A stretch of DNA of 64,000 nucleotides from Botryosphaeria dothidea (lineage: Eukaryota > Ascomycota > Dothideomycetes > Botryosphaeriales > Botryosphaeriaceae), in contig WWBZ02000016.1 in assembly GCA_011503125.2 (NCBI GenBank), forward strand, positions 3,100,001 through 3,164,000. The letters are read 5' to 3'. Below are positions 5,577 through 45,332 of this stretch, piece by piece; the first letter of the stretch is position 1; every line of letters begins with the position of its first letter. Position numbers and translations under genes: made by a program. The notes under the pieces were generated by a model that was not told the origin of the DNA, ran no database searches, and worked only from the letters and a program-made list of their open reading frames with translations.

Positions 5577-8500
5577 ATGGCCTTCGAATCCTCCAGCGGC
5601 TATGTCGCGTCCAGCAGCCTACACGACCTCACCGATGCCTCGCTACCCATCTTCAACGTCGAGCTGGTCAACCTCAAATTCGACCGCCCTTTCAGGACTT
5701 CGTCGCCGCCGAGGTCGCCAACAATGTCCTAATCCTCGCCTTCGAGACCGGCCGCATCTTGCGCTCGACCTCGACAGCCCTGAGGACATTGACGGTTTTG
5801 CCAACCTCGCCCCACACTCATCCCCCCACCACCATGCTTACCGCTTGCAGATGTCGACCTGCCCAAGAGACCCTCGGAAGTCGGTGTCATTCGTCGCATG
5901 TTCCTCGACCCGACTGCCTCCCATTTGATCATCACCACAACCCTCGCCGAAAATTACTACCTGCACACCCAGAGCCGCCAGCCCAAGGCTCTGTCGAGGT
6001 TGAAGGGCGTGCCCATTGGAGAGCGTTTCATGGAATCCCTCCGAGCCCACCGCTTCCCACTCGCGAAATCCTCATTGGCGCTTCCGACGGCACCGTCTAC
6101 GAAGTATATGTCGAGCCCTCCGCCGAATTCTACCGCCGGCGAAGAAAGATACCTGAAGTCTGTCTACAAGGCAGATGGGCCTGTCGTGGGCCTGTGGACC
6201 GATGCCATCCCGGGCAGGCCAGGACATACGGCGAGTGCTGATCGCTTACCCCGTCGGACCTGCAGCATTTTGTGGGAAGAGTTGGCAGGCACGGTCGTGA
6301 AGGTAGTGGTTCCATCTACGCTCGCCTTTTTGAATCCGAGGTTCCAACTTTCCTATGAGCGAATGGTGGTTCTCGACCTGGTCCTTCGATGCTTGCTGTG
6401 TCTCCAGATACCCCAGGAGGTTGCCGCCTCGACAGCCACTGAGAACGAGCGAGCTTTCGCATGGGTGAATTCCCACGGCGTGGTTCATGGGAAGCTGCTG
6501 ACCAATGCCGACTCATCCAACCTTGGAAACATGGTTATTCAAGGCTCCAAAATGCTTCCGAGGTCTAAGATTCCACCGAGTCAGACAGCTGGTGGTCGTC
6601 CAAAAGCCATCCAGGAGCCCGCTAGCTCAATGATCCTTAGCCACTGGCATGTCATTCAGCTTGTCGACGGACGAGTTGTCTGTGCTAATAGGCTTGATGA
6701 TACTGTTGCGTATGATCAGGCCGTCCTTGAGCCGGGAGAAGACTCACTAGGCCTAGTCGCAGACCAGAAGAAGAGCACTTTCTGGTTATTCACCAAGCAG
6801 GAGGTCTTTGAAATCAGTGTCTACGATGAAAGCCGCGACGTATGGAAGATCCTCCTCAGTCAGCAGCAATTTGATGCGGCTTCCCAGTTTGCAAAAACAC
6901 CGTCCCAAAAAGATGCTGTTGCTACCGCCTCTGGGGACTATCTCGTCAAAAAGGGCCAGTTTTTGGAGGCTGCCACTGTGTATGGGAGAAGCACAAAACC
7001 TTTTGAGCAGGTCGCTCTTACCTTCATTGATCACGGCGAGCAAGATGCATTGAGGAAATACCTGACTACCAAACTCTCTACCATCAAGAAATCTGCCACT
7101 ATGCAGCGGATTCTTGTTGCGACTTGGCTGGTCGAGATTTTCATATCCAAACTGAATGCATTGGATGATACTATCGGGACAAAGGCAGAGTTGTCCGAAG
7201 GAATGAATGCTCGCGACACCGAAGATCAATTGTCACTCACCCGTCGAGAGTTCCAGGAGTTCGTGACGAAGCACAAGGCCGACCTTGACCGAAAGACGGT
7301 CTATGAGATTATCAGCAGTCACGGACGGGAGGAAGAACTTCTGTTCTTCGCGACAGTTGTTAATGATTACAACTACGTGCTGGCGTACTGGATCCAAAGA
7401 GAGCGATGGGCCGAATCCTTGGACGTGCTGAAGAAGCAAACAGACCCTGAGATCTTCTACAAATATAGTTCCGTCTTGATGGCCAACGTGTCTATTGAAC
7501 TCGTCGAAATCCTCATGAGGCAAGCAAATCTTGAAGCGAGAAAACTCATCCCGGCCCTCCTCAACTATAACAAGATCACCCAAGGCCCTCTCTCACAGGT
7601 TTGTTCACATGGTCTTGATTCGGCCATGAGCATGAGACTAACGTAGAGTGCAGAATCAAGCTGTTCGCTATCTCTTGTTTGAGATCAATCAGCATCACTC
7701 CGCCGACGCGGCCGTACACAACACATTAATCTCGATTTACGCATCGCATCCGTCCCGTGACGAGTTGGCACTTCTTCAGTATCTCGAAGCGCAGTCGTAC
7801 GCCCAGGAACAGAACTATGACGCCGATTTTGCACTCCGCCTCTGCATTCAACACAAGCGAGTCCAGAGCTGCGTCCATATCTACAGTTCCATGTCGCAAT
7901 ACGTCCAAGCCGTCGAGCTCGCCTTGAAATACGACGAGGTCGACCTCGCCAGCTCCGTCGCCGACCGCCCCGAGGCCAATCCAGCTCTCCGTAAGAAGCT
8001 CTGGCTCGCCGTCGCCAAGAAGGTCATCTCCCAAAGCACCGGCATCAAGCCCGCGATCGAGTTCCTGCGCCGTTCGGACCTGCTCCGCATCGAAGACCTG
8101 ATTCCGTTCTTTCCAGATTTCGTCGTCATCGACGACTTCAAGGAGGAGATTTGCGCCGCGCTCGAGGAGTACAGCCGGCAGATCGACGCGCTGAAGAAGG
8201 AAATGGACGAGAGCACCGAGACCGCCAAGCACATCAAGGAGGACATCAAGCAGCTCGAGTCTCGCTACGCCATCGTCGAACCCGGCGAGAAGTGCCATAT
8301 TTGTCGCTTACCTCTGCTGGCTAAACAGTTTTTCGTGTTTCCCTGCCAGCACGCGTTCCATTCGGAGTGTCTGGGCAAGAAGGTCGTGGAGCAGGCGGGC
8401 AGGAGCAAGGCGAATCGCATCAGTAAGCTGCAGATGGAGGTGAGCAAGGGATTGAGTACGGGTGCAAGTCGGGAGAGGGCGGCTAGGGAGTTGGATGAAT

Positions 8501-8656
8501 TGGTTGCTGCGGCTTGGTAAGTGCATGCTGTGAAAAGCTGTGGTGTTGAGTTTGGCTAACATTTTTATTTTGCAGTGTTCTGTGCAGTGAGTTGGCTGTC
8601 AAGCAGATCGATGAGCCGTTCGTGCCGATGAACGAACCTAATGAATGGGCGCTGTA
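5577..8656 (+). CDS. VPS18: Vps18/Pep3, HOPS and CORVET core subunit (5' third frame-broken in this sequence)
   Basis: The C-terminal two thirds (about 6440-8656) read cleanly across introns 7599-7653 and 8517-8575. They give the alpha-solenoid/clathrin-repeat region, a coiled coil near ALEEYSRQIDALKKEMD, and a C-terminal RING-like finger (CHICRLPLL, FPCQHAFHSEC, CVLC). This layout is that of Vps18/Pep3, which tethers membranes for vacuole and endosome fusion. The N-terminal propeller is recognisable (FVAAEVANNVLIL, GVIRRMFLDPTASHLI, LIGASDGTVYEVYVEP) with an intron at 5795-5850. However, it jumps frame near 5690, 5762, 6018, 6058, 6136, 6221, 6245 and 6436, and a stop lies in the expected frame near 6355. 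The call is firm. Whether the breaks are biological is open. Confidence 0.85.
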
Positions 8657-37239: not shown

Positions 37240-37595
37240 GCGGTTTGGATCGCCGGGGAGGTTTGCCTTGCAATTGTTTGGGGGGGGGATATCGGTGGGA
37301 GCACATGGTGCTGGGTCGAAGAGGCCGGCGGTGGAAGGGCTGAGTGAAATCAGTGGTCTATGTCATGGGGAGTTTACATAGTGGTAGTGATGTAGCGAAT
37401 CCAGGATTCAAGAGACGTGCAAAACGCATTGCTTTTTTGCTGTGCAAAACTGATACCCTTGAAGCTATCATGTAGAGCAGTGCGGTCACTTTTTCTTCAT
37501 CGCTCAACAACCCAAGCTTTCAGACACGCACAAGAACCCGCCACAACGCAATGCAAGCACTGCAAGAGCACAAAAAGATAAAAAGAATGAAGGCG
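37240..37595. other. Spacer with tRNA 3' flank
   Basis: Convergent spacer between the HsbA-like gene and the tRNA-Val gene. It includes the tRNA's T-run terminator (separate entry). No other gene. Confidence 0.4.
37580..37584 (-). terminator. RNA polymerase III terminator of tRNA-Val
   Basis: Five T on the minus strand, 11 nt beyond the tRNA 3' end, with a second T5 run a few bases further at 37572-37576. This is the normal Pol III stop signal and supports the tRNA gene being transcribed as a unit. Confidence 0.7.
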
Positions 37596-37756
37596 TAGTC
37601 CCACCGGGGATCGAACCCGGGACCTTTCGCGCTTCTACAATATCTTCCGAAGAACGGTTGATGGTTGTGAAGCGAACGCTGCGAGGCGGATTAGAATGCG
37701 TTCGGATGAACTCGAGGTGTTGTGTTTACTCACTCATACCACTAGACCATAGGACT
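37596..37756 (-). tRNA. tRNA-Val (anticodon CAC) with two introns, one spliceosomal-looking
   Basis: On the minus strand the acceptor stem AGTCCTA (37756-37750) pairs fully with TGGGACT, then discriminator A at 37596. The A box TGGTCTAGTGG, the B box GGTTCGATCCC and the T stem CCGGG/CCCGG are intact. Anticodon stem TTCGC pairs with GCGAA, loop TTCACA plus C, anticodon CAC. A 34-nt intron sits at the normal 37/38 place. A further 55-nt insertion (37733-37679) separates positions 24 and 25. Removing it brings back GTC/GAC pairing in the D stem and a 72-nt tRNA. The insertion begins GTGAGT, holds TTCTAAT about 14 nt before its end and ends GCAG, exactly like the mRNA introns in this window. A standard tRNA model would probably miss or mis-score this gene. 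Confidence 0.8.
37679..37733 (-). other. 55-nt GT-AG intron-like insertion in the D arm of tRNA-Val
   Basis: It starts GTGAGTAAAC, contains CATTCTAATCC (branch-point-like) and ends CCTCGCAG. It lies between tRNA positions 24 and 25, where canonical nuclear tRNA introns do not occur. Its excision is needed for the 10-25 base pair (G-C). Confidence 0.7.
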
Positions 37757-45220: not shown

Positions 45221-45332
45221 CGACACCTGTGAGATTCGAACTCACGCTCCCGAAGGAACTGGCTAATCGGCTTCCTCCACTGGGAGGTGAGAGTATAGCA
45301 GGCCAGCGCGTTAACCACTCCGCCAAAGTGCC
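45221..45332 (-). tRNA. tRNA-Ser (anticodon GCT) with one canonical intron
   Basis: On the minus strand the acceptor GGCACTT pairs with AGGTGTC (with G-T pairs), discriminator G. D stem GCG/CGC, anticodon stem CTGGC/GCCAG with loop C-T-GCT-A. An intron of about 31 nt follows position 37. A long variable arm (TTCC-TTCG-GGA) marks class II, and T stem GTGAG/CTCAC encloses TTCGAAT. All parts are standard, in contrast to the tRNA-Val gene at 37.6 kb. Confidence 0.9.

Follow-up and report, generated by a model that had tools for sequence, protein, structure and literature searches.

In the textbook view, the spliceosome does not cut tRNAs. The canonical introns of nuclear tRNA genes are located at 37/38, and the yeast tRNA endonuclease is described as cutting only there (PMC4033280). 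Eukaryotic tRNA genes with an insertion in the D or T arm are described as mostly supposed pseudogenes, nucleomorphs and Cyanidioschyzon apart (PMC4090602). Among small structured RNAs, U3, which is transcribed by polymerase III, and U6 are described as the only ones known so far to be often interrupted by introns, and intron-bearing forms of both occur in fungi (PMC5832005). Introner-like elements have been reported in the Dothideomycetes (PMC4457414). At the level of titles and opening lines of abstracts, we found no prior report of spliceosomal introns in tRNA genes in the open-access literature.

Here, we analyzed a 64,000-nt stretch of the Botryosphaeria dothidea genome (the window) and the tRNA genes of the assembly, several of which possess, mostly beside the usual 37/38 intron, inserts that resemble mRNA introns and would be removed by the spliceosome. 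These inserts share with the U6 and U3 introns of fungi their GT-AG ends and fungal branch sites, their location in small structured RNAs, and the coexistence of intron-plus and intron-minus paralogs. They differ in that the hosts are tRNAs, with several isoacceptors affected at once, and in that 11 of the 12 genes also need a second, unrelated splicing machine for the 37/38 intron. Canonical introns are found in the same genes except Ser-AGA, whereas the new inserts lie elsewhere, carry spliceosomal signals, and are without a full bulge-helix-bulge. The ectopic introns of archaea, Cyanidioschyzon, and nucleomorphs likewise occupy the D, anticodon, and T arms, and a gene may have more than one (PMC4090602), but those are tied to the bulge-helix-bulge or very short, whereas the inserts described here are 52 to 61 nt long with GT-AG ends. 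The introner-like elements of fungi were reported from this fungus's own class, but no multicopy intron family was seen here by a search that could miss one.

Anatomy of the tRNA-Val(CAC) gene in the window

The initial annotation proposed a tRNA-Val(CAC) gene with a spliceosome-type insert at 24/25 in addition to a normal 37/38 intron, and both inserts and the limits of the gene were recovered as described (Table 1). Removal of both introns yields a 72-nt tRNA with 7/7 acceptor, 5/5 anticodon-stem, and 5/5 T-stem pairs. The D stem is paired at three of its four positions; excision restores G10-C25, T11-A24, and C12-G23, as had been claimed, and T13/T22 is unpaired. The anticodon loop is TTCACAC and the discriminator base is A. 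The A box, B box, and T-run, all held to be intact by the initial annotation, could be located, and together with the cloverleaf they are as in a functional nuclear tRNA gene.

Table 1. Features of the tRNA-Val(CAC) gene in the window (positions are those of the window)
Feature	Position	Strand	Remark
tRNA-Val(CAC) gene, two introns	37596..37756	-	spliced cloverleaf
Exon 1, tRNA positions 1-24	37734..37756	-	one D-loop base unlike paralog Val-CAC_2 (L011)
mRNA-type intron, 55 nt, at 24/25; GTGAGT 5' site, CGCAG 3' end	37679..37733	-	position shared by L011
Predicted branch-point A within TTCTAAT, followed by 12 intron bases	37691	-	computed position
Exon 2, tRNA positions 25-37, anticodon CAC	37666..37678	-	
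Canonical tRNA intron, 34 nt, at 37/38	37632..37665	-	
Exon 3, tRNA positions 38-73	37596..37631	-	
A box TGGTCTAGTGG, unbroken, 5' of the 55-nt intron	37739..37749	-	
B box GGTTCGATCCC, unbroken	37607..37617	-	
T5 run, likely Pol III terminator, 12 nt downstream of the gene; a second T5 follows	37580..37584	-	computed position

The resemblance to mRNA introns could be assessed within the window, where the Vps18 gene possesses two introns (7599-7653 and 8517-8575) of 55 and 59 nt, with GTTTGT and GTAAGT at their 5′ sites, CTAAC, and GCAG. The stretches joined over both introns read as the predicted Vps18 protein, and a third intron may lie near the gene start. Judged against these two introns, the tRNA and U6 inserts match mRNA introns in length and signals, in agreement with what had been said of the window insert. 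The mean intron length in the B. dothidea LW-Hubei genome is given as 116 nt (PMC7325678).

The gene was missed by the Rfam tRNA model, whose single hit at threshold in the window, at 45221-45332, is a tRNA-Ser(GCT) that has no intron besides an ordinary one at 37/38. ARAGORN with introns allowed made no call on the full tRNA-Val gene and called Val(cac) after the 55-nt insert was removed. When ARAGORN was run on the whole window nothing was called, a blank that was given no weight because the ordinary tRNA-Ser was missed too. In a sliding-deletion control, Val(cac) was still called after the deletion had been moved by -13 to +4 nt, and in other genes shifts of up to 32 nt were tolerated, often with a different anticodon. 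ARAGORN calls on the spliced sequence therefore cannot fix the exact position of an insert, and a fixed cloverleaf score was used instead. Among 73 placements of a 55-nt excision in the window gene, only one has GT..AG ends, and that one gave the single best cloverleaf.

Insert-bearing tRNA genes in the genome

In total, mRNA-type inserts were identified in 13 of the 85 located nuclear tRNA loci, representing 12 distinct genes and an identical copy of the window gene on contig C3. The distinct genes comprise four Ala-AGC, three Leu-CAG, two Val-CAC, and one each of Ala-TGC, Glu-TTC, and Ser-AGA, and they contain 14 inserts at eight positions (just before G18, 19/20, 24/25, 25/26, 30/31, 55/56, 57/58, and 60/61), all different from the canonical 37/38, where the separate 34-nt window intron does sit. 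A 37/38 intron is also present in 11 of the 12, Ser-AGA being the exception. The second Val-CAC gene (Val-CAC_2; L011, C1) possesses an insert at the same 24/25 site as the window gene; its 37/38 intron is diverged, and its T loop is interrupted by a further, third intron (61 nt, GTAAGT..CTGAC..CTAG). All four Ala-AGC genes (L040, L097, L103, and L093) carry an insert at 19/20, with the predicted exon junction TTTAGTGG/TATAATAC, and one has another at 57/58. The inserts are at 25/26 in the three Leu-CAG genes, at 30/31 in one Glu-TTC gene, at 55/56 in the T loop of Ala-TGC, and just before G18 in the D loop of Ser-AGA. About 200 bases downstream of the two-insert Ala-AGC gene (L093) lies a lone tRNA-Ala 3′ part (C36:2124299-2124338).

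The 85 loci, all from one genome and including some assembly duplicates, comprise 45 Rfam hits (one a damaged tRNA-Lys), 37 loci from a purpose-made tRNA finder (40 less 3 on C14), and 3 found by reading (Val-CAC_2, Ala-TGC, and Ser-AGA). Ala-TGC and Ser-AGA are the two tRNA-family matches below the Rfam cut-off; the Ala-AGC, Leu-CAG, and Glu-TTC genes were found by a B-box site search together with the finder. The Rfam model gave 61 hits in all, of which 16 (14 on C14 and 2 on C26) were excluded together with the 3 finder loci on C14 as presumably mitochondrial, judging from their sequence and the 145,619-base length of contig C14. The remaining 45 nuclear hits were sampled for reading from every score group; since no Phe, Tyr, or Asn gene is among those read, the inventory is incomplete. 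Contig C3 matches the window locus over 1301/1301 bases, and C36 and C78 have tRNA genes in common, offset by ∼885.7 kb, which in both cases reflects duplicated contigs or large duplications.

Inserts are carried by 4/4 Ala-AGC, 3/3 Leu-CAG, and 2/2 Val-CAC genes found. A genome search with six genes (18 rows) revealed no insert-free copy of these three isoacceptors, within an incomplete inventory; the intact Val-CAC gene envisaged by the initial annotation was thus not found, and the only other distinct Val-CAC gene found has the same insert. With such an inventory, an insert-free Ala-AGC gene may have gone unseen if its 3′ half is diverged and it contains a 37/38 intron; the search did bring up the lone Ala 3′ part on C36. 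A pattern search for T-loop introns showed no enrichment (82 matches versus 227 for a reversed-pattern control), and none of nine further matches inspected besides the known one passed the T-loop-intron finder. An IMG/VR scan returned 21 loci matching insert-bearing sequences, which were judged by eye, from short contexts, to be non-tRNA; two other IMG/VR scans for such sequences returned no loci.

The 14 tRNA inserts and one in U6 are uniform in their signals. All 15 are 52 to 61 nt long, start with GT at a near-consensus 5′ site, end with AG, and contain CTRAY, with 10 to 14 bases between the branch A and the intron end. The same signal test was passed by 6 of 300,000 shuffles, after its criteria had been relaxed, by one letter at the 5′ site and by 2 nt in the branch range, so as to include the two inserts found last; its narrower first form was passed by 13/13 inserts and 2/200,000 shuffles. 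The fixed cloverleaf score points the same way as in the window gene: the GT..AG excision gave the best or tied-best cloverleaf for all 12 tRNA inserts scored (Ala-TGC and Ser-AGA were outside the scoring), being the sole best for two (both Val 24/25) and tied with one to four placements at most 4 nt away for the other 10. When ARAGORN was given 10 genes with nothing removed, 7 received some call, the expected anticodon being called for only one (Leu-CAG_1), so that 9/10 full genes received no call or a wrong anticodon even with introns allowed. With the mRNA-type inserts removed and the 37/38 intron kept, the expected anticodon was called for 6/10 and a different one for 4/10.

Three U6 hits represent two distinct sequences. 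Two hits (C12:3173622, L113, and C3:1474133, L112) contain one uninterrupted 103-base sequence, and the third (C18:304005, L114) possesses a 58-nt intron, GTAAGC..ATACTAAC..GTGCAG, that is absent from the C12 copy. The sequence AGTTCGACCCC lies downstream of the C12 copy.

Removal, conservation, and origin of the inserts

The anatomy, the signals, the restoration of the cloverleaf, the paralogs with and without an insert, the conservation, and the intron-bearing U6 lead us to conclude that the window gene is very probably a working nuclear tRNA gene interrupted by a U2-type spliceosomal intron, and that the class is spread over several tRNA families. Under this premise, the internal promoter would direct transcription of the gene by Pol III, the spliceosome would excise the 52- to 61-nt GT-AG intron or introns as a lariat, the tRNA body would then be able to fold, and the tRNA endonuclease and ligase would finally take out the 37/38 intron. 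The spliceosome is placed before the endonuclease because an interrupted D or T arm would block the fold that the endonuclease presumably measures. Points against this reading are that the first exons are very short (16 to 30 nt in 11/12 genes) and that the transcript presumably has no cap.

The initial annotation had named two alternatives, a non-functional copy and the tRNA endonuclease acting at a non-canonical site, and the evidence favors the spliceosome over both. That the inserts mark non-functional or decaying copies would agree with the usual view of D- and T-arm insertions in eukaryotes (PMC4090602), and a real tRNA pseudogene does exist in this genome, an intron-free tRNA-Lys copy lacking 7 nt of the T arm (C58:2826308-2826373, L149). 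Nevertheless, the exons of the 12 genes are near perfect. Spliced Glu-TTC is identical in every letter to the exons of an insert-free Glu-TTC gene, an exact empty site, and spliced Ser-AGA matches its insert-free paralog at 78/81 positions, two of the three differences forming one compensated acceptor pair. Exon identity between paralogs is 71/72 for Val, 70/72 to 72/72 for Ala, and 69/81 to 81/81 for Leu, and that of the first inserts is 59 to 70%, compared to an average of 48 to 50% for shuffled versions, so the inserts seem to be distant relatives of one another. Stem changes are compensated across the inserts in three Leu-CAG acceptor pairs and one Ala-AGC_4 T-stem pair as well as in the Ser acceptor pair, and the variable arms differ between the Leu-CAG copies. 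On the other side, one acceptor position of Ala-TGC is unpaired (6/7). A G3-T70 pair, which we take to be the alanine identity element, is kept in 4/4 Ala-AGC genes. A run of at least four T's occurs within 44 nt downstream in 10/10 genes checked. Decay would not preserve splice signals in 15/15 inserts. Dead copies are a very improbable reading, given conserved exons around diverged inserts, compensation, inserts in 9/9 genes found for three isoacceptors, and insert-free paralogs for two others. Cleavage by the tRNA endonuclease, as in archaea, Cyanidioschyzon, and nucleomorphs, is very improbable as well, even though 25/26 and 30/31 are also archaeal intron positions and there are precedents in the multi-intron tRNA genes of nucleomorphs and the non-canonical introns of Cyanidioschyzon (PMC4090602). 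In a geometry that we assume for the bulge-helix-bulge, 14/14 tRNA inserts form only one or two of the four central-helix pairs, so that the full motif is lacking at 24/25 in the window gene as at the other tRNA inserts, and the central pairing of ten first inserts is at no above-chance level relative to shuffles (P = 0.54 to 0.91). The 37/38 introns of the same ten genes form three or four central pairs in seven cases and one or two in three. Endonuclease cleavage would also leave the GT-AG and branch signals unexplained, and a six-frame genome search for the endonuclease catalytic family (PF01974) found two loci.

Two further proposals concern the transcript and the source of the inserts. 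If Pol II made a longer transcript that was spliced as pre-mRNA, with the tRNA cut out later, a cap and the polymerase tail would be at hand for spliceosome recruitment. Both the A and B boxes are nevertheless whole in 8/12 genes, T-runs follow 10/10 genes checked, and U6, usually a Pol III product, has such an intron here too, all of which makes the Pol II route unlikely. It is also quite unlikely that a mobile introner family has recently placed copies of itself in tRNA genes and so given rise to the introns, a question that bears on the origin of the inserts and not on their removal. The introns of Leu-CAG_3 (L077) and Glu-TTC (L095) have their final 17 nt in common (TCTAACAATCTCAACAG), which hints at copying between tRNA genes, and a few cross-family intron pairs score above shuffles, uncorrected for the number of pairs. 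Against such an origin, a genome search in which six genes with their introns served as queries (one Ala, two Leu, two Glu, and one Val) gave no hits outside tRNA loci at E values up to 10 (18 rows); it took in 5/12 intron-bearing genes and skipped very common words, so a high-copy intron family could be missed.

Promoter elements and implications of the proposed spliceosomal removal

If the inserts are spliced as proposed, the spliceosome acts on tRNA precursors, presumably of Pol III, that have first exons of 16 to 30 nt and offer little chance of help from a cap or polymerase tail, and tRNAs, probably including an essential one, can depend on two unrelated splicing machines. The tRNA in question is Ala-AGC, which reads GCU and GCC and is for that reason probably essential. 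It is likely, judging from the genes found, that translation in this fungus depends directly on the spliceosome: every Ala-AGC, Leu-CAG, and Val-CAC gene found would need first the spliceosome and then the endonuclease, and a substitute B box may come with the introns that interrupt it. Spliced genes of this kind would be easily missed or misread, and the Rfam miss of the window gene together with the ARAGORN failure in 9/10 genes suggests that the class may be wider than known.

The A box and B box are both unbroken in the eight genes noted above. The B box is broken by the T-loop inserts of Val-CAC_2, Ala-AGC_4, and Ala-TGC. The expectation that the A box would always precede the inserts proved wrong, as the Ser-AGA insert falls inside the A box and splits it. 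A broken box could weaken these four genes. We conjecture that introns that break the B box bring a substitute. The T-loop intron of Ala-AGC_4 contains the B-box-like motif TGTTCGAATCT (shuffle P = 0.015), and the U6 intron contains CGTTCGATCCC (shuffle P = 0.039); each agrees with 9/11 B-box positions, of which one is free. These values are no more than suggestive, and the P values of the other 13/15 inserts are at least 0.18. The Ala-TGC intron repeats TTCGATCC from the gene's own B box, with P = 0.2 in the consensus test, and the T-loop intron of Val-CAC_2 has no B-box-like motif (P = 0.998).

Downstream of each of the four Ala-AGC genes, at a distance of 6 to 7 nt and ahead of the T-run, lies a T-arm-like hairpin that consists of CTGG, 7 nt, and CCAG or CCGG and contains GGTTNNANYCC. 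In L093, whose own B box is broken, the downstream copy is a perfect B box, GGTTCAATTCC. The hairpin is possibly an external B box. A dispersed repeat, GGTTCGAATCCGGGTGGGGACTGTTGCTTTTT, also has a B-box-like start; it is present on many contigs (for example at C1:12703, C3:9722, and C8:9805), with some copies near contig ends, and is perhaps a tRNA-related retroelement.
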